This document shows positions 3,864 to 33,282 of a stretch of 44,748 nt of DNA, one piece after another. The notes under the pieces are model-generated. The model was given only the letters and a program-made list of their open reading frames with translations, did not search any database and was not told where the DNA came from. This DNA is from a virus, in the IMG/VR virus record IMGVR_UViG_3300044726_000123, positions 1 to 44,748 of that record; one strand, written 5' to 3'. How positions within the stretch are numbered: the stretch's first letter is position 1; every line of letters begins with the position of its first letter. The position numbers were made by a program, and so were the translations under genes.

Positions 3864-3880
3864 CATGATTTATGTCGCCA
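3858..3880. promoter_or_regulatory. Repressor operator O2, overlapping the -35 of the leftward promoter
   Basis: Read on the minus strand this site matches the perfect 23-bp operator at 6435-6457 at 18 of 23 positions, including the shared block GACATAAATC. One arm, TGTCAACA (3858-3865), is identical to the consensus arm; the other is degenerate. It directly abuts O1. Confidence 0.6.
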
Positions 3881-3900
3881 CGGCCATTAAAGTGCGAGGC

Positions 3901-4659
3901 ATGGAGACAATGGGTGAGCGGCTGCGGGCTGCGCGAGAGCGCAAATTTTCATCGGCTTCCAAGGCTGCTGAAGCTATGGGCGTATCGGCGTCAACGTATA
4001 GGGCGCACGAAAACGGGCAGAATGATTTTGGCCCGGAAGAGGCTGACCTCTACGCCAAGAAATTCGGAACCAGCGCCGGATATCTATTAACCGGGAAAGG
4101 GCCATGGCACTCATCAAAGGGGAGCGAGGCTAAAGTCGTCGCGACGTATGATCCGGATGATGAAGCGGCCCCTTCGTATTTTCGAGACAATTGGAAGCCC
4201 AATGTAAAGGGCTCGATCCCTGAACTTGATGGCAAGCTGGGAGCCGGTCAGGGCGTCGCAGGAGATCTGATCGCCCTACCTATTGGCGGTCAACTCTATA
4301 CCGGCCATCGGGTGGTGGCCGAGTGGTTGTTACCAGAAACTTTCTTGCGCCATGAAGCGAAGGCCTCATCAAAAAGCTCAGTCGTAATGGAGGTCACAGG
4401 CGATTCCATGCTGCCGAGCTATCTGCCAGGTGACCGGGTCATCATCGATCTCGGGCAGAGCACTCTTTCGGTCGACTCCGTCTATGCAATTAGCGACGGG
4501 CAAAGCGAACCTCAAATCAAGAGGTTGCAGCGAGTGCCTTTCAGTAACCCCGTCCAGGTTCGCATTATTTCCGACAATACAGCTTTTCAGATGGACACAG
4601 TCGATCTCTCTCGACTCACGATTATCGGTCGCGTGTGCGGTCATATCGCTCGCCGTTAG
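3901..4659 (+). CDS. S24/LexA-type phage repressor (CI-like)
   Basis: A 252-residue repressor. Residues about 6-40 form an HTH_3-type DNA-binding domain (RLRAARERKF, then AAEAMGVSASTYRAHENG). The C-terminal half is an S24 peptidase fold: Ser169 in GDSM is the nucleophile and Lys207 in QIKRL the general base. Ala120-Gly121 in QGVAGD is a candidate self-cleavage site, so the protein should be inactivated by RecA-type SOS signalling. It lies opposite the Cro-like gene and the paired operators. I took ATG 3901; ATG 3910 with GGAG just upstream is equally possible. ATG 3865 is inside operator O2 and was rejected. It maintains lysogeny by repressing both early operons. Confidence 0.9.
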   Translation: METMGERLRAARERKFSSASKAAEAMGVSASTYRAHENGQNDFGPEEADLYAKKFGTSAGYLLTGKGPWHSSKGSEAKVVATYDPDDEAAPSYFRDNWKPNVKGSIPELDGKLGAGQGVAGDLIALPIGGQLYTGHRVVAEWLLPETFLRHEAKASSKSSVVMEVTGDSMLPSYLPGDRVIIDLGQSTLSVDSVYAISDGQSEPQIKRLQRVPFSNPVQVRIISDNTAFQMDTVDLSRLTIIGRVCGHIARR

Positions 4660-5019: not shown

Positions 5020-5562
5020 TTGACGCCTGATCTGGAAAACCAGATCCTCGATGCCTTGGAGCGAATAAGCCAGGCGCAAAAGGCGTTCGATGAAAACCCG
5101 AATTGGGTATCAATATCCGACAACCGTGGCAGCGAACGGCTCGAATTGACGGCAGCTCTGCAGATCAATGGAGTGCTTGGCGGTGGTGTGTCGCTTCGTA
5201 TCAACACACCTCGGAACAGTTGGGAAAAGGACGTTTACGGGCACATCGAGGTTCGCCGTCCTGACATGAAGCCGCACGCGCGCCTCGCTGCCATTGAATG
5301 GCGTCCTCGGCATGATCACACCAATCCGCCCTATGCTCCTTACGGTCTTCGGCTCAAAGTGCTAAGCGACCGATGGCATTCATTCGATGATAACCGGCAT
5401 CTTGGTATAGAGGCATTCACTCAGTCCAAGGCGAGCGTCGCCCGACCACTGCCACGTACAATTCTATCCTTCCGGGAGTATATTGAACTGGCGGCAGAGA
5501 TTTGGAATTTCCCTGAGGCCACGACTATCGAGACACCCGAATGGTCAAGACTGCTACTCTAG
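5020..5562 (+). CDS. Unknown protein, first gene of a two-gene accessory cassette
   Basis: A 180-residue soluble protein starting at TTG 5020 behind a GGGGG stretch. Residues about 30-110 are rich in alternating hydrophobic positions, suggesting a beta-rich fold, with GGGVSLRIN and YGHIEVRR. The C-terminal part is helical (FREYIELAAEIWNF). It overlaps the DUF1828-like gene by 22 nt, so the two are co-translated and probably act together. It may resemble the DUF6978 family, but I am not sure of that name. It sits in the lysogenically expressed part of the genome, where phages often carry defence or toxin-antitoxin genes, and its GC content is somewhat lower than that of the structural genes. 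Confidence 0.65.
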   Translation: MTPDLENQILDALERISQAQKAFDENPNWVSISDNRGSERLELTAALQINGVLGGGVSLRINTPRNSWEKDVYGHIEVRRPDMKPHARLAAIEWRPRHDHTNPPYAPYGLRLKVLSDRWHSFDDNRHLGIEAFTQSKASVARPLPRTILSFREYIELAAEIWNFPEATTIETPEWSRLLL

Positions 5563-6296
5563 TGAGTGACCTGGCCGCAGTTGCCGAGGACGTTGCTCGT
5601 GCTTTGACACATGTCAGCACGGAAGGCGATTCCGCGTTCGTGTCTACATCCGTGAAGTACGCCAACGGCACGTCTGCCGTGATCCGGATATCCCCCATTG
5701 GCGACGGCTATTTCGTCTCGGATGACGGCTATGCCGCACTAATCGCCGACATGATGGGCGCCCTGCCAACTTTCTCGAAGGTGGCTCCTACGGTGGCCAA
5801 GCGCTTCGGCGTGGAATTCGATCATCGCTCCTTCTTCGTCATGCATGTGCAGCGCGATCAACTCCCCGCCGCCGTATCAATTCTGGCGAATGTCTCGGCG
5901 GTGGCGGTAGAGCGGACGATCTGGAGCCTTGAGGCGATCAAGGTGAAGCGCTCGCGCATCTTGTTCGAAGAGCGCCTGCATGAGGCGTATGGCAAACGCG
6001 TGCGGTTTGGTGTTTCCGTGCGCGGCGCTACGCGTCCGTGGGATTTTGACGGCGTAGTTCTGCACGGCAATCAGGTGCAGGCAGTGTTCGAATTCGTCGC
6101 CCCGGCCTTCAATTCGGTCGCGACCGCGAACATGAAAATCGGTGACGTAAGAAGTATGACCGATGCGCCCTATACAGTTGCCGCTTTGGCGGACTACGAC
6201 CGCACCGAGTCTTCGCTACGCGCCGTTCTGTCCAATGTCGCCGACCGAGTAATTCCAGTCTCCACGCCGGCTGATGGTTACAAGCTGGCGGCCTAG
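5541..6296 (+). CDS. DUF1828-like protein, second gene of the accessory cassette
   Basis: A 251-residue protein starting at ATG 5541 inside the previous gene. The N-terminal part carries the motif pattern of DUF1828: a strand-rich segment ending in VIRISPIGDGYFVSDDGYAAL (about residues 47-67), where the ISDDG-like turn is typical. The C-terminal 120 residues contain a second domain (WDFDGVVLHGNQVQAVFEFVAP) with acidic residues and a beta-strand pattern that could be a degenerate nuclease fold; this is speculative. DUF1828 proteins are often encoded beside small partners in variable regions, and an antiphage or toxin-antitoxin role is possible. Function is not established. Confidence 0.65.
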   Translation: MVKTATLVSDLAAVAEDVARALTHVSTEGDSAFVSTSVKYANGTSAVIRISPIGDGYFVSDDGYAALIADMMGALPTFSKVAPTVAKRFGVEFDHRSFFVMHVQRDQLPAAVSILANVSAVAVERTIWSLEAIKVKRSRILFEERLHEAYGKRVRFGVSVRGATRPWDFDGVVLHGNQVQAVFEFVAPAFNSVATANMKIGDVRSMTDAPYTVAALADYDRTESSLRAVLSNVADRVIPVSTPADGYKLAA

Positions 6297-6985: not shown

Positions 6986-7176
6986 CCATCCAGGAGTGGG
7001 GATCCTGCCCACTGTGCCAGAAGGCGCACCAGATCGAGGATCACACCTACCGCATCAGCATCGACGGCCGGCTGCGCTTCATCTGCCAGTCCTGCCGCCC
7101 GACATCTCCTGCTTCCATGCCTCCTAGCGGCAGACCCAACGGCCCGGCCTCGCATAGAGAGGACAACCACAGATGA
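6982..7176 (+). CDS. Small zinc-ribbon protein
   Basis: A 64-residue protein with two knuckles, CPLC (about residues 9-12) and CQSC (about 35-38), separated by a beta-rich segment TYRISIDGRLRFI. This is the minimal zinc-ribbon pattern. The C-terminus is a Pro/Ser/Arg-rich tail. It overlaps both neighbours by 4 nt (ATGA), so it is translated as part of a coupled series. Nucleic-acid or protein binding is plausible. Confidence 0.65.
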   Translation: MTIQEWGSCPLCQKAHQIEDHTYRISIDGRLRFICQSCRPTSPASMPPSGRPNGPASHREDNHR

Positions 7177-7481
7177 CCTTTCACGCTCCCTCCTTCGGTG
7201 TTCCTGCCTTCGATCCCGTCCTGGCCGACGCCTGGCGCGAAAGCGCGCTGACCGTCGAGCGCAGCATTCGCATGATCCGGCAGCACCTGGACACGATCGA
7301 GCACGCGGACGATCGGCTGCGGTGCGGCGAGCTGCTGCATTCCCGCGCTTATGTTGCGACGTGCCGCAAGCTGCTGCCGTGGCACCTGTCTGTCTACCTG
7401 GCGGCTTTGCGGCAGGTCACCGAGGCCGAGATCAAGATGGGGCATATCGGCATGCCGTTCGCCAAGTCTTCAGAAGGATAA
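7173..7481 (+). CDS. Unknown helical protein
   Basis: A 102-residue protein, coupled by ATGA to the zinc-ribbon gene. It is predicted to be almost entirely alpha-helical (AWRESALTVERSIRMIRQHLDTIEHADD and later WHLSVYLAALRQVTEAEIKMG). No motif is recognised. Its stop is 4 nt before the ATG of the first repeat-bearing gene, which has an AAGGA site inside the end of this gene. Confidence 0.6.
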   Translation: MTFHAPSFGVPAFDPVLADAWRESALTVERSIRMIRQHLDTIEHADDRLRCGELLHSRAYVATCRKLLPWHLSVYLAALRQVTEAEIKMGHIGMPFAKSSEG

Positions 7482-7485
7482 TCCC

Positions 7486-8109
7486 ATGAGCGCCGAGCCG
7501 GCAGACTATATCCACAACATCGAATTCCAGCAGGCGATTGCCAAATGGCAGAACAGCGGCGGCACGTTCGGCGTGGCCTATGCCATGCTGTGCGCCGCCT
7601 ATGGACGGGGAGACGCGGGCCACCGTCAGGTTGCCGAAGAGGCCAGTATCGATGTGCCCGACGCCTCCCCACAAGATGCAGCGGAGGGCCAGAGGACCAT
7701 TGCCGACGAGGCCACCGAGTTTGTGCCCGATGCTGCACCCGAACGAAGCGGAGAGGGCCATTCGACGCATGCCGACAAGGCCATTCATCCTGTGCCCATC
7801 TCCGCTTCGGCCCGTGTCCTGCCCGGACACGCCAAGCACGGCATGGCGTCCATCAGCGCTGTGCAGGGCACCATGTCGAAGTCGCTGTTCGACCGCATCA
7901 AACTCCCGGACGGCCGCACGCTGCGCGAGGTCTGCTGGAGCGAATGCCCTAACCTCGCCACCCGCTACCGGCGCCTCTCGCGCATCCTCATGGCGCTATG
8001 GGCCCATGGAAAGCCGGTCGACCCGAACACGACGGTCGACAACCTCATCAACGATGCGGGGCTGAAGCAGATCGTGGATGCCGTGGAGAAATTCAATGAC
8101 ATACACTGA
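7486..8109 (+). CDS. Repeat-bearing protein with ADKA/VP motifs, unknown function
   Basis: A 207-residue protein starting at ATG 7486 behind AAGGA. Residues about 45-105 consist of three 23-residue units of the pattern G-(H/Q)-x3-A-(D/E)-x-A-x3-V-P. They are encoded by the DNA elements described at 7618-7797. After the repeats a different domain follows (SISAVQGTMSKSLFDRIKLPDGRTLREV, then helical to residue 207), which I cannot name. The gene overlaps the next repeat-bearing gene by 14 nt. Outside the repeats the two proteins are not alike, so the repeat has moved between unrelated contexts or been selected as DNA. Confidence 0.7.
   Translation: MSAEPADYIHNIEFQQAIAKWQNSGGTFGVAYAMLCAAYGRGDAGHRQVAEEASIDVPDASPQDAAEGQRTIADEATEFVPDAAPERSGEGHSTHADKAIHPVPISASARVLPGHAKHGMASISAVQGTMSKSLFDRIKLPDGRTLREVCWSECPNLATRYRRLSRILMALWAHGKPVDPNTTVDNLINDAGLKQIVDAVEKFNDIH
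7618..7797 (+). repeat. GGCCA-N9-TGCC element array A (6 copies in 3 units of 69 bp)
   Basis: GGCCA boxes start at 7618, 7641, 7687, 7710, 7756 and 7779, each followed after exactly 9 bases by TGCC. Within a unit the two elements are 23 bp apart, and units repeat every 69 bp (three times 23). All six copies are exact. Each element is also an imperfect inverted repeat (GGC-A against T-GCC), so hairpins are possible in single-stranded DNA or RNA. Confidence 0.85.
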
Positions 8110-9505
8110 TACGAATGGAGCGAAGGGCCGTCACCCCACTGCCGTCGAGGCCAGTCGACGAGTGCCCGACGCTCCACCCAATGACGGGGAGGGCCAAATC
8201 GCAGCTGCCGACAAGGCCAAGTTCGGGGTGCCCGACCCGTCGCCCAGCAACAGCAGAGCGGGCCATTCACGGAATGCCGACAAGGCCACTGCGGGAGTGC
8301 CCGTCTCTGCTGACCCGAACGATGGCGGAGATGGCCTCGGTCCGTCTGCCGACAAGGCCAAGCAACGTGTGCCCTCCTCGCCATCACCAAACAGTAGAGC
8401 GGGCCAAAGGCATGGTGCTGACAAGGCTAAAGGAGCGCTGCCCGTCTCTGCTGTGCTTGCCAAGCTTTACGAGCTGCAGGTCCGCCGCAAGTTCTACATC
8501 TCTGTCGTCAACAAGCAGACCAACGCCGCCAAGGCGCTTGTCCGCCGCGCGCTCGGTTGGCGCTACGACAGCGATGAAGGCTCCCGCACAAAGATGAACG
8601 GCAAGGCCGCGCGCATCGTCGCCGCGGCGATCGCCGGCAAGCCGCAGCGCCAAGAAGACGAGATCGCCTTCGCCTCGCTCTGGGACGACCTCCTGGTGGT
8701 CGCCGGGTCCATTGAGCCCTGCGCTGAGGCGCGGCATGACATCGAGCTGGCCATGGAGCGGGCCGTTCGCGGCCTGCCTGTCTACGCCTGGGCGAAAGAA
8801 GTGAAAGGACTCGGCGAAAGAGGCCTCGCCGTCATCCTGGCGGAAGCCGGCGATCTGTCTGGCTATCCGAAGAAGGGCCACCTGTGGAAGCGGCTCGGCC
8901 TCGCTCCCTTCAAGGGCAAAGCCTGTTCGACCTGGCGGCGCGAGGGCGGCCTGTCGGCCGCCGAGTGGGTCGAGGCCGGCTATTCGGCGCCCCGCCTTGC
9001 CCAGATATTCGCTGTCATCTCGAAGCCGCTCCTACAGGCGCAGCTCGTCAGCAAGGAGAAGTCCAGCACGAAGCACGGGCAGGCCAAAGGTCCGTATGGC
9101 GCGATCTACGTGCGTCGCCGCGAGCATCTGGACGAAGCGCACCCCGACTGGACGCCGAAGCACTGCCAGATGGATGCGCTAAGGGTGATGACGCAGATCC
9201 TGCTGCGCGACCTGCTGCGCGAATGGAAAGCAACAGAGGACCATCCCGGCGTTGCCAACGAGGCCAGAGTGGAAGTGTCCTCTGCTAAACGCCGGGAGGC
9301 CATCCCTGCCGTGCCGACAAAGGCTAGAGCGTGGTTGCCTCCCGGCGAGACGGACGGGCGGACGGCTATTCGGCCCGTGTCTGAAAGGACCATTCGGAGG
9401 TTGCCGTCTGCCCGCGCCGTCGAGAAGGCCAGCAATGTCGTGCCAGAAATGGCCAATCAAGCCTTGCCTTCCGACGGCGCTGACTTGCACGAAGGCGTGG
9501 GATGA
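8096..9505 (+). CDS. Helix-hairpin-helix protein with IS110-transposase-like C-terminal domain, flanked by repeats
   Basis: A 469-residue protein starting at ATG 8096 (GGAGAA upstream). Residues about 10-115 and 380-458 consist of repeat peptides (ADKA, VP and LP motifs) encoded by arrays B and C. The central domain (about 118-378) is basic. At 234-272 it contains VKGLGERGLAVILAEAGDLSG followed by LWKRLGLAPF, which closely resembles the helix-hairpin-helix of the IS110/IS116/IS902 transposase C-terminal domain (PF02371). The N-terminal DEDD catalytic domain of IS110 enzymes is not seen, and no transposon ends flank it, so it is not an insertion sequence. It probably binds DNA. Recognition of the surrounding arrays is a testable guess. 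Confidence 0.75.
   Translation: MTYTDTNGAKGRHPTAVEASRRVPDAPPNDGEGQIAAADKAKFGVPDPSPSNSRAGHSRNADKATAGVPVSADPNDGGDGLGPSADKAKQRVPSSPSPNSRAGQRHGADKAKGALPVSAVLAKLYELQVRRKFYISVVNKQTNAAKALVRRALGWRYDSDEGSRTKMNGKAARIVAAAIAGKPQRQEDEIAFASLWDDLLVVAGSIEPCAEARHDIELAMERAVRGLPVYAWAKEVKGLGERGLAVILAEAGDLSGYPKKGHLWKRLGLAPFKGKACSTWRREGGLSAAEWVEAGYSAPRLAQIFAVISKPLLQAQLVSKEKSSTKHGQAKGPYGAIYVRRREHLDEAHPDWTPKHCQMDALRVMTQILLRDLLREWKATEDHPGVANEARVEVSSAKRREAIPAVPTKARAWLPPGETDGRTAIRPVSERTIRRLPSARAVEKASNVVPEMANQALPSDGADLHEGVG
8126..8443 (+). repeat. GGCCA-N9-TGCC element array B (10 copies in 5 units)
   Basis: Boxes start at 8126, 8149, 8192, 8215, 8261, 8284, 8333, 8356, 8402 and 8425. Every one has the 9-base spacer to TGCC or TGCT. 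Units are 66, 69, 72 and 69 bp apart, always in whole codons. Four of the ten copies carry a single-base change in a box (8126, 8333, 8402 and 8425). The array encodes the N-terminal repeat region of the helix-hairpin-helix protein. Confidence 0.85.
9239..9468 (+). repeat. GGCCA-N9-TGCC element array C (8 degenerate copies)
   Basis: Elements begin at 9239, 9262, 9298, 9322, 9364, 9388, 9427 and 9451, with spacer 9 in all. Box sequences vary more here (GACCA, GGCTA, TGTC), but the pair at 9427 and 9451 is exact. From 9298 on, pairs are spaced 24 rather than 23 bp and the first element of each pair is read in the other frame, giving A-x3-V-P peptides twice instead of G-H-x3-A then A-x3-V-P. Confidence 0.75.
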
Positions 9506-9537
9506 GCGCGCTTAGGAAAAACCAACAGGAGAAACCG

Positions 9538-9882
9538 ATGACCGAGATGGAACGCGCCCTGAACCAGGCGATAGACGAGGACAACATGTCGCCGCCGGAG
9601 CCGGTGAAGCTGCGCACCGCCCGGCCGCTAACGCTGGCCGAGATGGCCTCGACGATCGACCGCGCCCACATCGACATGGCGGCGCGCTTGCGCAAGGAAG
9701 GCATCGACGCCCAGTGCCTTGCCGAGGAGCGGGTGACCGCTGCCCATGCGAAGTATGCCCGCCTGTTATCCGAAGAGACGGCCCGCCTAACGCGCGAAAG
9801 AGACGACGCCATACGCCTGGCTGAGGTAGACTACCGCAACAAGCTTCACGAGCTCGCGGGTCTAGTCAGGCAACGCCCGTGA
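9538..9882 (+). CDS. Small coiled-coil protein
   Basis: A 114-residue protein starting at ATG 9538 with AGGAGA 5 nt upstream. An in-frame ATG at 9502 overlaps the previous stop as ATGA and would add 12 residues. It is helical throughout, with a long charged coiled coil over the last 70 residues (AARLRKEGID, then EETARLTRERDDAIRLAEVDY). The first 40 residues are acidic and proline-bearing. No function can be assigned. It is followed by a 205-bp non-coding stretch. Confidence 0.6.
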   Translation: MTEMERALNQAIDEDNMSPPEPVKLRTARPLTLAEMASTIDRAHIDMAARLRKEGIDAQCLAEERVTAAHAKYARLLSEETARLTRERDDAIRLAEVDYRNKLHELAGLVRQRP

Positions 9883-9980
9883 GAGCAAGCTCACCGGGTC
9901 GATCCCCAAACCCGCCCGGCGGGCGAGCCGCGCGCCTAATTCCCCCAAATGCCGGCGCGCGGCAGCTCTCGCTTCGCCTC

Positions 9981-10015
9981 CCCGCAGCCGGTTTCCTGTC
10001 CTTTGCGGCTGCGGG
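9981..10015 (+). other. GC-rich hairpin in the 205-bp gap at 9883-10087
   Basis: CCCGCAGCCG (9981-9990) pairs perfectly with CGGCTGCGGG (10006-10015) around a 15-nt loop. GCCTC (9976-9980) and GAGGC (10022-10026) can extend the stem. No T run follows, so it is not a simple terminator. The gap holds no convincing gene and ends with the Shine-Dalgarno of the next gene. It may be a transcript-processing or attenuation structure. Confidence 0.4.
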
Positions 10016-11749: not shown

Positions 11750-12174
11750 TGAGCCGCGCGCTGGCCCCTCTGACGCTTGACCAAGCAGCCGAAGCCTTGG
11801 GGATAACTGTGGAGGATGCTGCAAATCCAGCCCGCCACGTCCGCGATCTCATCCGCCGGCACGGCATACCCTTTACGCGGTGCGGCCGCACGGTAAAGCT
11901 TCGTGCCGATCAGCTTGCGGCTCTAGCCGAGAGAATGGTTCAATGCCCCTCAAACTCTGGCAGCACGACAACGGCTTCTGGTACGTCACCGGAACCGTCA
12001 CCGCCTGGAGGAATGGACAACCTCATTCAAGGGAGGTTCGACGCTCTACCCGGACCCGCGACGAAGCCCAGGCAGACGGCATCCGTCGTCAGATTGACAA
12101 CGCGGAAGCCGAGCAAAACATCACCGGTCGTGAACCCGTTCTCACGTTCCGCCAAGCGGCAGCGAGATACGTAA
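11749..12174 (+). CDS. Excisionase-like HTH protein with a long overlap into int
   Basis: Residues 8-64 form a MerR/Xis-type winged helix-turn-helix: LTLDQAAEALGI, then HVRDLIRRHGIPFTRCGRTVKLRADQLAALAERM. The position directly upstream of the integrase fits a recombination directionality factor. The frame stays open for 231 nt inside the integrase gene, and that C-terminal half (Ser/Thr/Pro-rich, no fold visible) looks like a shadow of the integrase frame. Either the true protein is short and a frameshift has removed its stop near 11945, or the overlap is real. Confidence 0.65.
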   Translation: MSRALAPLTLDQAAEALGITVEDAANPARHVRDLIRRHGIPFTRCGRTVKLRADQLAALAERMVQCPSNSGSTTTASGTSPEPSPPGGMDNLIQGRFDALPGPATKPRQTASVVRLTTRKPSKTSPVVNPFSRSAKRQRDT

Positions 12175-13007
12175 AGAACGGCGGCGAGGAACGCTACATC
12201 GAAGCGACGGTGAGGCGGCTCGGCCGGCTTCGCATCAACGAAATCACCCAACAGCTATTGGACGATGCGGCGCGGGCCCACTATCCGATCGCCGCCGACT
12301 CCACGATCCGCCGCTCGTTTCACGGGCCAGTCATCGCCGTCCTGCGCGCCAACGGCATCAAGGAGTTGTTCAGCCGGCCGCCCGACGGCGAGAAGCGCAC
12401 CATCTTCTTCCGGCCCGAGCAGGCCGACAGGACGCTGAAGCAGATCGGTATCAGCCGCTATCCCAACCCATGGGCCGGCGCATTCGCTACCTTTCTCTTC
12501 GGGCAAGGAAGCCGCGTCAGCGAGACGCTGGCAATCGACGGGCGCGACGACATCTCGCTCGAGCACCGCTATGCCATCCTGCGCGACACCAAGAACGGCA
12601 AGGAGCGGATGGTCACGCTTTGCCCCCGCACGATCGCCGCGGTGTCGACTATCCCGAATCTCGGCCGTAAGGGACCGCTGTTCCTTCGCTATGACGGCAG
12701 GCCTTACGATGCCAGGAACGGCAACGGCTACCAGTTTTCCTTCTGGAAGCGCGCCGTCACGGCAGTCGAGCTCGATCCGCACGACTTCACCCCGCACACC
12801 GCCCGGCATTCGTGGGCGACATGGTTCTACAGCCAAACGAAGGACGTGGTTCGGCTCAAGGCCGAAGGCGGCTGGGACAGTTCGGAATGGGAGAGATATG
12901 TGAAGCTTGCAGCGCCAGGATTAGGCCATGCCGCGATGCAATATGGCTTCAGCTTTTCTGAAATTCCGCAAAGTGGTGCTTTGTCCACAGCGGCTAATAC
13001 AGCATAA
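11943..13007 (+). CDS. int: Tyrosine-family phage integrase
   Basis: A 354-residue site-specific recombinase starting at ATG 11943. The catalytic residues are in place: Arg191 (GQGSRVSET), a Lys in the beta-hairpin (Lys217 or Lys220, DTKNGKERM), His285 and Arg288 (PHTARHSW), Trp311 and the nucleophile Tyr319 (SEWERYVK). The N-terminal 60 residues carry an Arg-rich AP2-like or arm-binding segment; residues 65-150 are the core-binding domain. The gene ends 46 nt before a serine-tRNA fragment that must be attP. As the last gene of the O3-controlled operon it would be repressed in the lysogen and induced together with the excisionase-like gene. Confidence 0.92.
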   Translation: MPLKLWQHDNGFWYVTGTVTAWRNGQPHSREVRRSTRTRDEAQADGIRRQIDNAEAEQNITGREPVLTFRQAAARYVKNGGEERYIEATVRRLGRLRINEITQQLLDDAARAHYPIAADSTIRRSFHGPVIAVLRANGIKELFSRPPDGEKRTIFFRPEQADRTLKQIGISRYPNPWAGAFATFLFGQGSRVSETLAIDGRDDISLEHRYAILRDTKNGKERMVTLCPRTIAAVSTIPNLGRKGPLFLRYDGRPYDARNGNGYQFSFWKRAVTAVELDPHDFTPHTARHSWATWFYSQTKDVVRLKAEGGWDSSEWERYVKLAAPGLGHAAMQYGFSFSEIPQSGALSTAANTA

Positions 13008-15085: not shown

Positions 15086-15321
15086 AAGACTTCCTCGCCT
15101 TCATCGTCTTCGCGCTGGCGTGGTCGGCTGGCGCCGGGCTGCTGCTCGAGACAAAGCTTGTAAACCCCTATGCAATCTTCGCCGTCTGGACCGTCGGCTT
15201 CGTCTGGGGCGTCGGCTACATCGCGGCTGGCAATCGCGAGGCGGCTGACTATCTGTTGAAGATCTGGCTCGGCATGATGGCGACCTGCGGCTTGCTCGCC
15301 CTGATGGTCTTTCTCAATTGA
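15082..15321 (+). CDS. Small membrane protein, partner of the preceding gene
   Basis: A 79-residue protein starting at GTG 15082, overlapping the previous stop by 4 nt. It has three hydrophobic segments (FLAFIVFALAWSAGAGLLL, PYAIFAVWTVGFVWGVGYIAAG and IWLGMMATCGLLALMVFL). It ends 8 nt inside the convergent ejection-protein gene. The two genes form a small operon of envelope proteins. Altered host surface or superinfection exclusion is a guess from position. Confidence 0.6.
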   Translation: MKDFLAFIVFALAWSAGAGLLLETKLVNPYAIFAVWTVGFVWGVGYIAAGNREAADYLLKIWLGMMATCGLLALMVFLN

Positions 15322-19638: not shown

Positions 19639-22600
19639 TTTGGCAGCACCACAGGATTGCCGAACTCATCGACAGACGGGCCGGCGCCTGCCTCTGGCGT
19701 GCGCTCTCCATAGTCGCTGTCCGTGACTGGGCCTTTTTGCCTCGGCGGAACCTTCGCGGGCTTGAAGATGATCGGCTCGCCTGTCGCATCTGAAATCGCC
19801 GCGCCAGTGTACGGATCGATGAACACATAGCTGTCATCGGCCTCGGCGTTGCGGAAGTAGCCTTGAGTCATGACGTTGTCGGCGTGGTTCTGCGTCACCG
19901 CATCGAGCACGGCCTTCGTGCCGTCGCTGGTTTTCACCTCGGACGGCACGGCAAGAGTAGCCTCAACCGCCGTGCGCACGGCCGGCATTTGCGCCTCCAG
20001 CCCGTCGATGATCGGCTCGGGGTTCTCGCCAGCCGGCATCAGGATCTGCATGTTCGCGCGGCCGTCGCCCGTCACGATCTGCACGTCGCCATAGAGGTCC
20101 TTCGCCACTGCCGCGACCGCAGACTCCAACTCCTCGCCCTGGCGCAGGCGCATGTTGACAGCATTCGTCATCAGCTTGGCATCGCGCTCGGCCTTGACGA
20201 AGTTCTCGGCGACGCCATCAGACAGCCCGTAGTAGATGTCGCCGACCTGACCTTCCTGCATAAGCGCATCCTGGATGGACTGCTCAATGACGGCCGGGGT
20301 CTCCGCCACCTTGCCGGGCAGTTTCGTCGGGTCGACGATGGAAGCCTGGAACAAGCGCCGCGCCGCGCCCTCATCGCCGCGCGACAGCGCCCGAAACGCG
20401 CCCTGCGTGATTTCCGGCATGCCGGCGTCGACCAGTTGCTCGAATATGGCCTGCTGCTGCTTGGGATCTGGCGTCGAGGCCACCGCCACCGCGGCAGCTT
20501 GGATGCGATCCTCTTCCGGCACGTTCACGTCCTTGAAGACCTTGACCGCATTGTCGGCGATGTTCTTCGGCAGTGGCTGCACATCTTCCGACTTGATGCC
20601 GAGCTGCTCCTGCGCGGCGATCGAGGCGGCGACCGCCCGGCTGTAGGCGTCGGCGCGCTGGTTAGGGGCCGCCCGCGAAGCGCTTTGCCAGGCTTGCTGG
20701 ACGTTCGGGAAGGCGTTTGAGACATAGCCAGCCGGATCCGCCGCCCGCGCCTTCATGGTGGCTTCCGCGGCCGCCTCGAGCGAAGCGTATTTCGCCGCCC
20801 CCAGGGCTGCCGCGTCGCCAGTCGCCAGCGGCGCCGCCGCCTTCAGCATCGACTGGATCTCGGCCTCTGGCATCTTCTGCATGGCGTAGACGGACTCGGC
20901 CGTCTCGACCGAGGCCTGGAAGGTGCGGTATTTGTCCGGCCCGGTATCGGCCCCGTAGGCCTTTATGAAGTCCTCCTGGCCAGGCATCGTCGCGCCGGTG
21001 TAGACGCCGGTATTCTGGATGGCGACCGGCGCGTTGGTGGTGATAACGTCGAGGTCAGCGCGCAATGCCGCCATCTGCTCGGCAACCGCGGAATCCGCGG
21101 CATTGGCCAGCGCCAGCCGCTGCTCCAGCGTCAGGTTGCCGAAGCGGGGATCGATCGCGCCGGCACCGCCGCCGGTGGCAGCCACTCCCGGGCCACCCAT
21201 CTTTTCGGCCGCCCAGTCCTTGATCCAGCCGACCGTCTTGCCCTGAAGGTGCGGATTGGCGTTCATGGTCGCCGCGTCCAGCACGCTCGCCAGCTGGGAT
21301 TCGTCACTTGCCTTGAAGATCGCTTCGGCGCCTCCCTGGCCAGCGAAGTGCGCCAGGTAGATGTTAGCCTCCGTCACCGGAATGTCTTTGCCGCGAAGGA
21401 ACTCTGCGTTGTCCTTTGTAAGCGCCGTCGTCATCTCGCGGCCGAGCGCGCGGTCGGTCTTCATCGCCAGCAGGACGCGGTCGCCGAGGCCCGCCGCCAG
21501 GTCGGGGCGGTGCTTGCGGATGGTGGCGAGCCAGGTGCCGTCCGTGAATTGCCCCAGCCCAGACGCGCTCGACCGCTCGTTCTTGGCAGTAGGGTCGCCG
21601 CCCGATTCCGCACCGATGATCTTGTTGACGACGTTGGCGACCGGATCGCCACCGCCACCGGTCAACTTCCCGGCACGGTGGTCCGCGATGATGTCAGCGT
21701 AGGCTTCGGGAACGTCAGCGCCGCCGGCGCTCGTACGGTAGCCCCACGCCCTGCGGCGCCCCATGTCGGCATGGATCGTGGTGTTGCCGATGCCGATGCC
21801 GGTGACGCCCGCAGCAGACAGGGCAGCGACGATGCGGCGGCGCTCATCAACGCTATAGCCGGATACGTCGATGTCCATGGCGTTGGCGTCGAGATGCTGC
21901 GAATCTTCAGCGCCGCCGACAGCTTTGTTCTTGGCCTCAGAACGGTAGCCGGAATTTATCTTCGCGCCGCCTATGCCGAGACCGGCGAAAGCCTGCTTCA
22001 CGGCACCGACCAGTCGGGGATTTAGCTCGGCCTCGCCGCCAGACTTGAAATCCAGCCTGACATTACCGCCGCCACCACCTTCCCCAGGCTTCGGCATGCC
22101 GAGCAGCCCGCGCACCCGCGATGGGTCTTTCGTGGTCATCGCCAGCGCCAGCGCCTTCTCGGCGTTCTGGTTCCACTCGACGATCGCCTTTTCCTTGTCC
22201 AGCGCGTCCATGTCGCGGGCGTTGATCATCGCCTCGCCGCGCGCCTTGAAATCGGCAATGATCTTCGGATCGTCCGGATCTGCCTGGGCGATCTCGTTCA
22301 TGAATTTCGTGGTCTGCTTCTGGGTCTCGAACTCCTCATACTCCCGCCGCCTGGAGATCTGCAGCGGCGCCATCTTCTGCTGCCCCTTCAACCGGTACAG
22401 CTCGCGCTTCTTCAGGAAATCGTCGCGCACCTTGCCTTCCGGCATCCTCGCGGCCGCTTCGTCGAAGCGCTTGTCGAAGGAGCCCGGCTTGACCACTGCG
22501 CCGGTCTTCGGGTCGACCTCGCCGTAGAGTCCGGCGACCATGTCGGAGCCATCAGACGGCGCATTGGCCACCGCGTCCTGTTGGCTGAGCGCTTCCCCGC

Positions 22601-31044: not shown

Positions 31045-33282
31045 TCACAGCACGGTCCCCGCGAAGTCCTTGAGCGGCCCGACCACCTTGCCGTAGGTCT
31101 GGCCGAGCCAATACTGGACGTGAATGTCGCCGTTCTGCCCGCCGCCCTGCGCGGTATAGTCGATCAGGCTGACTGTGGTGTCGCCGTCGTCGAAGGCCGA
31201 GCAGCCCCACAGAAACATCTTCTTGGTGGTGCCAACGCCTTGATAGGCATCGTGCCAAAAGCATGCCTTCGGCGAGCCGGTGCCCTTCGGGCGCGCGGCC
31301 TGCACGTTGTAGTTCAGCGAATGCACGCCATTGACATCGGCAATCACTGCGCCGTTGCAGTCACCGCAGAAGACGTTGGCCCTGACAATGTGCATGCTGT
31401 CATGCGAGGTCGAGCCATTGGAGCTAGCCGAAAGCGCGACCTGGTCCGGAAACAGATTGAAGCCATTGTCGTAAGCACTGCAGTCGTACTCGTAGACGGT
31501 GATGAACTCGCCCTTCTGGCCGGTCGTCACGAAGGAATGGTAGTTGTGCCCGTCGACGTGGGAGTAACGGGCATGGCAGTTCTCCTTCACAATCACGTCG
31601 GCGTCGTAGATTTCAAAACCGTTGCCGTTGCCGTAGGCAAGACAGTTCTTCATGCCCATGCGCGCCAGCGTCGGAGCGCCCGTGGTGACCGGGCGATAGC
31701 GGAAAGCCGCCGTCGAGACCGCACCCGAGTTGGCGCAGAACTCCAGGTTCTCGACGAGGATGACCCCCGCCACCGTGTCCAGCGCCTGCTGCAACTCAGT
31801 GCGATAGGCGCTGCGCGTGTACATCCAGCCATCGGCTGGGTTGGGTTTGCGGTTGTCGATCATATGGACGTAGACTTTGAAGGTGCCGCTATCCCACCAA
31901 AAGGTGCCGGGCGTCGCCTCGCATGCCGCCTGTGACGCTGCGACCACGATCGGCATCGGGATGCCGCGCGCATCGAGGTACTTCCTGTCGAACTGGGCGC
32001 GGTAATAGTCGTTGCTGGTCAACGCGTTCGAGACATACGCACCAGCGCTGCCACTCGCCACGAAATTGAAGAAGGCGGCATCATAGCTCTCGCGCATCGA
32101 CACGAAACGGGTACGCCCTGTCGGACCCTCGCCGATGATCTTGAACTTGCCCGAGAAGACGACGCCGGCGGTGGAACCCGCCGACAGGTAGCCGACCCAG
32201 TCGTCCTTCATGTGGATGACGGCGGGTGATACCGCGTTGACGCGGGCATAGTCCCATGTCTTCCAGGGACTGCCCTCGGTCGTGCCGGGGTTGGCGTTGT
32301 TGCCGGTCGTGTAGTTCACATAGTAATGGTTGCAGGTCTCGGAGAGCGTAAAGTCGATCAGGTCGTAGGGCTTCTGGTAGAAGCGCACGGCGCTGCCGTC
32401 CCAGTAGATCCTCGCATTGAGCGGGTTGTTGAAGGTGCCGGGCAGCGTGATCTCGCCCATCGGCAGGCGGGCGACCGCAGCCTTGCCTAGCGGGTTGCCC
32501 ATCCTGATCCGCACCCAGGCGCCGGCCGAAGCCAGCTTGTCGTCGGCCTTGATGTAGTCGTACTCGTTGGCGTCGGCAGCAACCTGCGTCGAGTAGTTGC
32601 CGCTCCTGAAATGGTAGAAGCCCTCGCGGTTGGCGTCGGTGCGGTAGGCGACCGTGATCGTCGACGAGGCCAGCGCCTTCAGCGTGGTGAGGTTGACCCG
32701 CGGCAGCGCGCCGGTGACCAGCGCCGCTGACGCCGCCGAATCCGCCGCGTCCTGTACAGATTCCGCAACAGCGTCGAGAGCGGCCGCGCCCGCTGCCTCG
32801 ACCGCGTCAACGGCGGCCTCGCCGGCTGCCTCAACCGCATCGACCGCCGCCTCGCCCGCTGCCGTGGCGGCATCGGCCGCATCCTGCAGAGCGTCCTCAG
32901 CGTCACCAACCGTGTCGTAGGACAGGAAGAAGCCGATTGAGATCTCGTCGTGGCCGATCTCCGGCTCCGGCGTCAGGAAAGCGAAGGTCTGGCCCTCGTG
33001 CGCCGTGCCTTCCGCGACATGCACCGTCACGCCCTTGTTGATGGCCCTGGGCGAGCGGGCGTCGCTGGCCCTGTACCATTCACCCTCGCTCGCCCCGTAG
33101 ATGCCGTTCTGGCGCTGGTCCGCCTGGTCCTTGAGCAGCACCCGGTCGCCGGGCTCGACCGTCACCCCGTCGATTGTCAGCAGCCCGCCGGCGGCGGGAT
33201 TGATGTTGCTGGTGCTGGCGACGCGAACCGGCTCTCTCGAACCAGCCAGAAGCCGCGAGGTGGAGGTGGCGGGACGTGCCAT
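31045..33282 (-). CDS. Tail spike / fibre with beta-helix receptor domain
   Basis: A 745-residue protein starting at ATG 33282, 1 nt after the previous stop. Residues 1-125 look like a head-binding adaptor (TIDGVTVEPGDRVLLKDQADQRQNGIY). Then comes an Ala-rich hendecad coiled coil (about 137-170), a linker, and from about 290 a right-handed beta-helix with recurring Asn/Gly/Val turns and scattered Trp and His, similar to polysaccharide-degrading tail spikes. It is probably a trimer that recognises or cuts host surface glycans. No exact catalytic pair can be assigned. Confidence 0.75.
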   Translation of the reverse strand: MARPATSTSRLLAGSREPVRVASTSNINPAAGGLLTIDGVTVEPGDRVLLKDQADQRQNGIYGASEGEWYRASDARSPRAINKGVTVHVAEGTAHEGQTFAFLTPEPEIGHDEISIGFFLSYDTVGDAEDALQDAADAATAAGEAAVDAVEAAGEAAVDAVEAAGAAALDAVAESVQDAADSAASAALVTGALPRVNLTTLKALASSTITVAYRTDANREGFYHFRSGNYSTQVAADANEYDYIKADDKLASAGAWVRIRMGNPLGKAAVARLPMGEITLPGTFNNPLNARIYWDGSAVRFYQKPYDLIDFTLSETCNHYYVNYTTGNNANPGTTEGSPWKTWDYARVNAVSPAVIHMKDDWVGYLSAGSTAGVVFSGKFKIIGEGPTGRTRFVSMRESYDAAFFNFVASGSAGAYVSNALTSNDYYRAQFDRKYLDARGIPMPIVVAASQAACEATPGTFWWDSGTFKVYVHMIDNRKPNPADGWMYTRSAYRTELQQALDTVAGVILVENLEFCANSGAVSTAAFRYRPVTTGAPTLARMGMKNCLAYGNGNGFEIYDADVIVKENCHARYSHVDGHNYHSFVTTGQKGEFITVYEYDCSAYDNGFNLFPDQVALSASSNGSTSHDSMHIVRANVFCGDCNGAVIADVNGVHSLNYNVQAARPKGTGSPKACFWHDAYQGVGTTKKMFLWGCSAFDDGDTTVSLIDYTAQGGGQNGDIHVQYWLGQTYGKVVGPLKDFAGTVL
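32774..32872 (-). repeat. 33-bp (11-residue) tandem repeat inside the tail spike
   Basis: Three imperfect 33-bp copies encode the 11-residue unit AAGEAAVDAVE. An 11-residue period is typical of right-handed or nearly straight trimeric coiled coils. It links the adaptor to the receptor domain and can change in length by unit slippage. Confidence 0.6.

Follow-up and report, generated by a model that had tools for sequence, protein, structure and literature searches.

The 44,748-nucleotide (nt) viral record IMGVR_UViG_3300044726_000123, analysed over its whole length (positions 1 to 44,748; hereafter the window), contained two overlapping genes on the plus strand at 7486–9505, gene A followed by the tasA open reading frame (ORF), and three arrays of hairpin units within these genes. 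Judging from the sequence, this is with high probability a phage TIGR-TasA locus, in which 12 in-frame units are predicted guide RNAs of the TasA protein and the gene A–tasA message would be both mRNA and guide precursor. The tasA ATG at 8096 was located inside the end of gene A, the overlap being 14 nt. It was preceded by a GGAG motif, which also preceded the tas starts of the related loci L003–L008. The locus was organized as follows:

8096–9505, plus strand: tasA ORF, 469 amino acids; N-terminal array B and C-terminal array C, both in frame, on either side of the Nop domain
8450–9232, plus strand: Nop-domain core, the feature under study; central 261 residues of the tasA ORF; no nuclease domain found
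7486–8109, plus strand: gene A, partner gene without assigned function; array A in frame between a conserved N-domain and a conserved C-domain
8085–8088, plus strand: GGAG, Shine–Dalgarno-like, ending 7 nt before the tasA ATG

An initial annotation had placed an IS110-like C-terminal domain lacking the DEDD catalytic domain at 8452–9230, which corresponded to the Nop-domain core. In Pfam, this likeness appeared as a weak match to PF02371 (Transposase_20) over 42 residues (domain E 3.5e-4, whole-ORF E 0.0011; 21.3 and 19.8 bits, i.e., at or below the cut-off of 21.3), and the DEDD domain PF01548 gave no match at E ≤ 10. The N-terminus of tasA was array-encoded. The profile comparison also went beyond the annotation: in NCBIfam, the TIGR_Tas model NF052498 (E 1.4e-18) outperformed the IS110 model NF033542 (E 4e-5), and NF052498 matched all 24 proteins scanned (the window protein and 23 homologs). 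A profile search of the PDB returned TasR (9mty, E 2e-13) and TasH (21kl and others, E 4e-8) and nothing else significant. The AlphaFold2 (AF2) model of the 261-residue core had a predicted local distance difference test score (pLDDT) of 88, and its best structural matches were TasH (Z 15.4) and TasR (Z 14.9), which Foldseek also ranked at the top. Weaker matches were ISCro4 (Z 13.0), IS621 (Z 12.4), Nop5 (Z 7.4) and Prp31 (Z 7.2). An IS110-type fold was thus recovered at Z 12–13, but TasH and TasR fitted better at Z about 15. An IS110 transposase was rejected as the identity of the protein, as no DEDD domain was found and TIGR-Tas was the better-matching family. No nuclease family was detected in the Pfam or NCBIfam scans; the predicted Nop fold covered the 261-residue core, and the remainder was mostly array-encoded. 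Because no nuclease domain was found, the protein is TasA-like, and by its profiles and predicted fold the 8096–9505 product is a nuclease-less TIGR-Tas effector, TasA, with a solo Nop domain. In a tblastn search, the whole tasA ORF gave no plasmid match and one phage match. The tas gene was rare in bacterial genomes: among 297 from the order of L024's genome, it was found at E ≤ 1e-20 in one, that of L024 itself.

The window copy of gene A had no Pfam or PHROG match, and its relatives gave weak rows only. As the AF2 model of gene A had low confidence (mean pLDDT 46, about 32 in the array part), we make no claim on its fold. Eight loci, the window included, were aligned; in one reading frame, conserved domains flanked the array, the C-domain being weak in L010. 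Gene A and its homologs carried a short conserved N-terminal motif of the QNNGGTFEQA type in addition to the C-terminal domain. All eight loci returned for gene A (six of them known beforehand) had an adjoining tas gene and hairpin units, i.e., gene A, tas and units travel together in this set. PADLOC returned nothing for the Tas or the gene A protein.

The repeat arrays described in the initial annotation were real and flanked the domain, with 12 units in total: three in gene A (array A, 7607–7809), five between the tas start and the Nop domain (array B, 8116–8454) and four after the domain (array C, 9234–9480). The repeat pattern given there, GGCCA-N9-TGCC, was likewise present but was half of the full unit, consisting of box C (CCA), a 9-nt spacer and box D (TG). 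With small differences between units, the full order was a 5' arm ending in GGC, CA, a 9-nt spacer, TGCC-loop-GGCCA, a second 9-nt spacer, T and a 3' arm beginning with GCC. The units and their two spacers, all on the plus strand, were:

7607–7670, plus strand: array A unit 1, spacers CCGTCAGGT / GTATCGATG
7677–7737, plus strand: array A unit 2, spacers GAGGACCAT / CCGAGTTTG
7744–7809, plus strand: array A unit 3, spacers TTCGACGCA / TTCATCCTG
8116–8176, plus strand: array B unit 1, spacers TCACCCCAC / GTCGACGAG
8182–8242, plus strand: array B unit 2, spacers AATCGCAGC / AGTTCGGGG
8251–8312, plus strand: array B unit 3, spacers TTCACGGAA / CTGCGGGAG
8321–8385, plus strand: array B unit 4, spacers CGGTCCGTC / AGCAACGTG
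8391–8454, plus strand: array B unit 5, spacers AAGGCATGG / AAGGAGCGC
9234–9284, plus strand: array C unit 1, spacers TCCCGGCGT / GAGTGGAAG
9290–9347, plus strand: array C unit 2, spacers TCCCTGCCG / GAGCGTGGT
9350–9420, plus strand: array C unit 3, spacers TTCGGCCCG / TTCGGAGGT
9414–9480, plus strand: array C unit 4, spacers GCAATGTCG / ATCAAGCCT

With the second of our unit finders (finder 2), the 12 units scored 17.6 or more, and the other plus-strand matches in the window scored 14.4 and 13.5. At the loose threshold of 13.5, the minus strand gave five matches and three shuffled windows gave 5, 5 and 2; over 11 loci, this threshold gave 0–5 matches per shuffled locus and 0–5 on the minus strand. 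The two arms of a unit matched each other: beyond the constant GGC/GCC, pairing was 7.52 within units of the window versus 2.50 across units, and 7.00 versus 2.39 for 44 units of six loci (0 of 2000 permutations in both cases). All 12 units folded into hairpins (z −2.36 to −6.06), and 0 to 6 of 200 shuffles folded equally well. Rfam returned no family at gathering score over 7000–10000, the one row being on the minus strand (E 0.049, 23 of 100 bits). Judged by their sequence, all three arrays are built like stem-loop TIGR guide arrays.

The co-occurrence of arrays and homologs envisaged in the initial annotation was found throughout: with two finders, designed after inspecting these loci and recognizing 9-nt spacers only, all 28 non-duplicate homologous loci held three or more units. 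Among the 190 units in these 28 loci, those at window 21533, L020 9938 and L024 10782 were taken as background. In 15 distant loci, finder 3, which was written after inspecting L012, L019 and L021, detected 105 units, none on the minus strand and none in three shuffles of each locus. In 13 of these loci, the loop was 9 nt in nearly every unit (e.g., CGAAACCCA) and box D was mostly CG. Both strands of nine phage records (432 kb) were scanned at thresholds of 16 (finder 2) and 11 (finder 3), which gave 12 places away from tas; near tas there were 60 finder-2 matches, all on the tas strand except one (L006). An array in L012 (5271–5818), in frame in tas, had a 111-nt (37-codon) period with two alternating stem types. 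The 'hypothetical protein' QWY83253.1 of Rhizobium phage RHph_X2_25 was homologous to TasA, and stem-loop units occurred both within its gene and around it.

On five grounds drawn from the reading frames, the arrays are translated within gene A and tasA. In the window and the six loci closest to it (L003–L008), all 46 units above threshold were inside the gene A and tasA ORFs. No in-frame stop codon touched their spacers, versus 8.1 expected from random spacers (P 0.0002), while the other two frames had 11 and 9 stops versus 10.2 and 11.7 expected. In 11 loci, 67 of 73 units were inside ORFs, and these gave the same picture, with 0 in-frame stops versus 11.9, and 15 and 16 versus 14.8 and 16.5 in the other frames. 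So did the 39 of the 105 units in distant loci that were wholly in tas (0 versus 6.7, P 0.001; 10 and 9 versus about 7.7). Selecting in-ORF units biases the 67-unit and 39-unit tests, whereas the set of 46 omits no unit above threshold. The most stop-exposed codon phase (phase 0), with three free codons per spacer, was used by none of the 134 spacers of the 67 units and by one of the 39 distant units. Of 37 unit spacings, 30 were multiples of 3; these cases are not fully independent, because L005–L008 share ancestry. In both the window and L003–L008, array B was preceded by the tas start and its GGAG, and in the Rhizobium-phage group the in-tas units were likewise preceded by a start with a GGAG-type site before it. 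Neither L007 nor L008 had an ATG, GTG or TTG after 5842 and 5839, respectively, up to the Nop domain; since no start codon separates array and domain, the array must be translated there. In gene A of L005–L008, the variable columns after the array were mostly third codon positions (6/4/22). The embedding of units above threshold, judged from their frames, is complete for the window's clade, and elsewhere it is partial: in L010, L011 and L024, units occurred between or after gene A and tas.

For the frame tests, a score of at least 15 was required of units outside the L007 array, which excluded L003 6877, L005 5591 and window 42367 and 43873; a match in L024 beyond 10000 was also left out. In L007, the unit corresponding to the second one in array B of L005, L006 and L008 was below threshold. 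Gene A of L008 and L009 and tas of L009 were treated as frames without a start codon. The L009 tas held an ambiguous base, and the L009 unit at 5428 was counted as non-coding; at L009 5402–5490, near the tas start where this base is located, the frame of the first unit differed from that of the remainder.

The close relatives L005–L008 differed mainly in their spacers. Over five units, identity was 27.8% in spacers, 90.0% in stems and loops and 93.9% outside the units; the frame was kept throughout, and the stems were kept with few changes. Three of 72 homologous spacer pairs shared 7 of 9 bases, compared with none of 792 non-homologous pairs. Because only homologous pairs reach this level, common descent with modification remains recognizable in a few spacers, and most spacers look replaced. 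L006 and L007 were contigs of one IMG genome number (2894228515), with near-identical TasA loci and different spacers; two prophages of one genome may therefore hold different guide sets. The last unit of L005–L008 (6730–6797) overlapped the codons for the final Nop helix (EWRRA), where an RNA stem and conserved protein residues would share bases.

Several observations weigh against a translated guide array of the TIGR-TasA type. The NF052498 score of 67.7 bits was below the curated cut-off of 100, which is an annotation threshold rather than a family feature, and the model is named for endonucleases. Box D was CG rather than TG in many relatives. The absence of in-frame stops was not significant in the window alone (P 0.21), which has too few spacers. 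Unit spacing was not a multiple of 3 in seven of 37 cases, one of them in the window, and third positions dominated less in gene A before the array (4/4/8). Outside gene A and tas there were six of the 73 units in 11 loci, and 66 of the 105 units in distant loci were not wholly inside tas. The target search also returned nothing above control level. With a target modelled as spacer A, 0–2 nt and the reverse complement of spacer B, based on the cleavage geometry given by Faure et al., the 73 units matched 29 records of related phage and host-locus DNA, 660 kb in total, at eight places with ≤2 mismatches; re-paired spacers gave 9, 5 and 6, and three other geometries gave 12, 16 and 12. Exact scans of viral contigs with two of the 12 window units gave 1 and 0 matches, versus 1 for a re-paired control. 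No target is claimed for any unit.

Three other explanations were weighed against this background. The guides could be real and their overlap with the ORFs incidental, GC-rich, stop-poor DNA leaving the frame open and the protein starting after array B. Across the arrays, the remaining frames and the minus strand are likewise open, the GTG at 8453 is a possible start for the Nop domain, and the window's few spacers could not reveal stop avoidance. This is nevertheless very unlikely, as stop avoidance among the 46 units was confined to the coding frame and recurred in the replicate, phase 0 was unused in 134 spacers, L007 and L008 had no later start codon, and the conserved domains of gene A flanked the array in one frame. 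A still smaller probability attaches to units that are DNA sites bound by the protein, or selfish palindromes with an unguided Nop protein beside them. The units are indeed palindromic, and Rickettsia palindromic elements have been reported in frame in ORFs (PMC10969869, in the part consulted). Against this, each unit has two short spacers that turn over while the stems stay, across nine records a single match near tas (in L006) was not on the tas strand, and in every case the neighbouring protein was one whose nearest relatives of known structure bind RNAs of this kind. The related proposal of the initial annotation, that the arrays were a DNA operator or target array of the protein, gave way to the TIGR-Tas family match and the guide-unit anatomy; a role in genome organization found no support in the analyses run. 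The least probable of the three is that the repeats act at the protein level, as a tandem disordered peptide (ADKAxxxVP type) binding a partner. Arrays A and B of the window do encode a regular peptide repeat, but two codon phases give different peptides with the same RNA anatomy, spacer residues were not conserved, the arms paired within units, and units also occurred outside gene A and tas.

We therefore return to the TIGR-TasA reading, under which the gene A–tasA mRNA most likely doubles as the guide precursor: because the guides are in frame inside both genes, one stretch of RNA may serve as message and guides. The array codons would form disordered linkers. By analogy with Faure et al. 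(PMC12045711), a host RNase, with the help of TasA, would cut units from the transcript, a TasA dimer would carry one unit, and spacers A and B would pair with opposite strands of an 18-bp DNA site. Having no nuclease, the complex would act by occupancy or DNA bending, and occupancy could block transcription or replication of foreign DNA, probably of competing phages. Since the units are part of the tasA message, the release of a guide would cost one message; maturation would consume the message and exert negative feedback, and such a message-consuming control of the effector is plausible. Hairpin-bound TasA may also slow translation. The autoregulation suggested in the initial annotation is possible through RNA, if TasA binds the hairpins of the mRNA that encodes it. 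A more far-reaching proposal is tentative and, taken as a whole, somewhat more doubtful than probable. Here the same nucleotides would be a dual code for protein linker and guide RNA, new spacers would be kept only if the frame stays open, each released guide would destroy one effector message so that guides and effector control each other's production, and the codon phase and loop length of the units would be co-adapted to reduce stop codons.

TIGR-TasA is a known kind of system. In their main text, Faure et al. 2025 (PMC12045711) describe it as a solo Nop effector, often in phages, with stem-loop arrays; units have two spacers (8–12 nt) between box C and box D and variable palindromic flanks, and several subarrays surround tas, located upstream, downstream or between genes. 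Spacer gain, the role of the nuclease-free TasA and guide maturation are stated there as open. The window locus shares the Nop effector without a nuclease, the two-spacer box C/D units, the variable palindromic flanks, the variable spacers and the several subarrays. It differs from the systems in that text in that its units are embedded, in frame, in both tasA and the gene before it, and gene A, lacking a supporting Pfam match, is not recognizably ParB-like. The terms 'reading frame' and 'mRNA' were absent from the main text of Faure et al., as were 'open reading frame' and 'coding sequence' from that of a TIGR review (PMC12385481). A search of the literature from 2025 on for guide arrays in coding sequence with a Nop domain found no TIGR description beyond Faure et al.

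Precedents for parts of this arrangement exist elsewhere. In the consulted text of Nety et al. 2023 (PMC10278001), the mRNA of TnpB is itself the source of its omega RNA, and the phrase 'nonoverlapping omega RNA' suggests that part of the scaffold overlaps the ORF. TnpB, as described in that text, has one guide per message, with the 5' end cut by its RuvC domain, whereas the window has 12 guides over two genes, variable guide bases inside codons, a nuclease-less Nop protein and an unrelated RNA. IS110/IS621 proteins share the Nop-like RNA-binding C-terminal fold (Z 12–13), and the match of the window protein to Transposase_20 was weak; in the window, no DEDD domain was found, and there are many-guide arrays rather than one bridge RNA. 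Box C/D small nucleolar ribonucleoproteins (snoRNPs) share the Nop fold (Nop5, Z 7.4) and, according to the main text of PMC12045711, two guide segments between C and D boxes, but snoRNPs modify RNA with fibrillarin, and the structural similarity to the window protein was low. The Rickettsia palindromic elements are likewise in frame in ORFs, but in the consulted part of PMC10969869 they are dispersed over unrelated genes, have no reported guide anatomy and are not tied to an effector.

The locus was flanked by a CI-like repressor gene (3865–4659) and an integrase gene (11967–13007), with head-tail and tail genes on the other strand, and the window phage looks temperate from its gene content. 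In L010, exonuclease and Gp2.5-like genes were followed by tas and then an integrase gene, and in L003, tas was followed by exonuclease and RecT/Bet-like genes. Positions 20000–44748 of the window gave no megablast match in the phage collection, and no tRNA was found in the window. An upstream ORF (5541–6296, 251 amino acids) had no Pfam, PHROG or PADLOC match, and short tandem repeats of 33 and 18 nt (32780–32863 and 15183–15217) were unconnected to the arrays. Two PHROG families named transposase, phrog_4285 and phrog_2199, matched TasA proteins (window 8096–9502, L002 4551–5603). Going by these matches, the two families may be mislabelled, at least in part, and TasA systems may therefore be under-recognized in annotation.

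While membership in TIGR-TasA is of a known kind, the in-frame placement of guide units appears to be new. The near-identical stems with almost wholly different spacers, all open in frame, constitute a natural experiment on spacer turnover in close phages. If the proposed arrangement is true, in-frame guides would couple the supply of guides to the synthesis of the effector that uses them.
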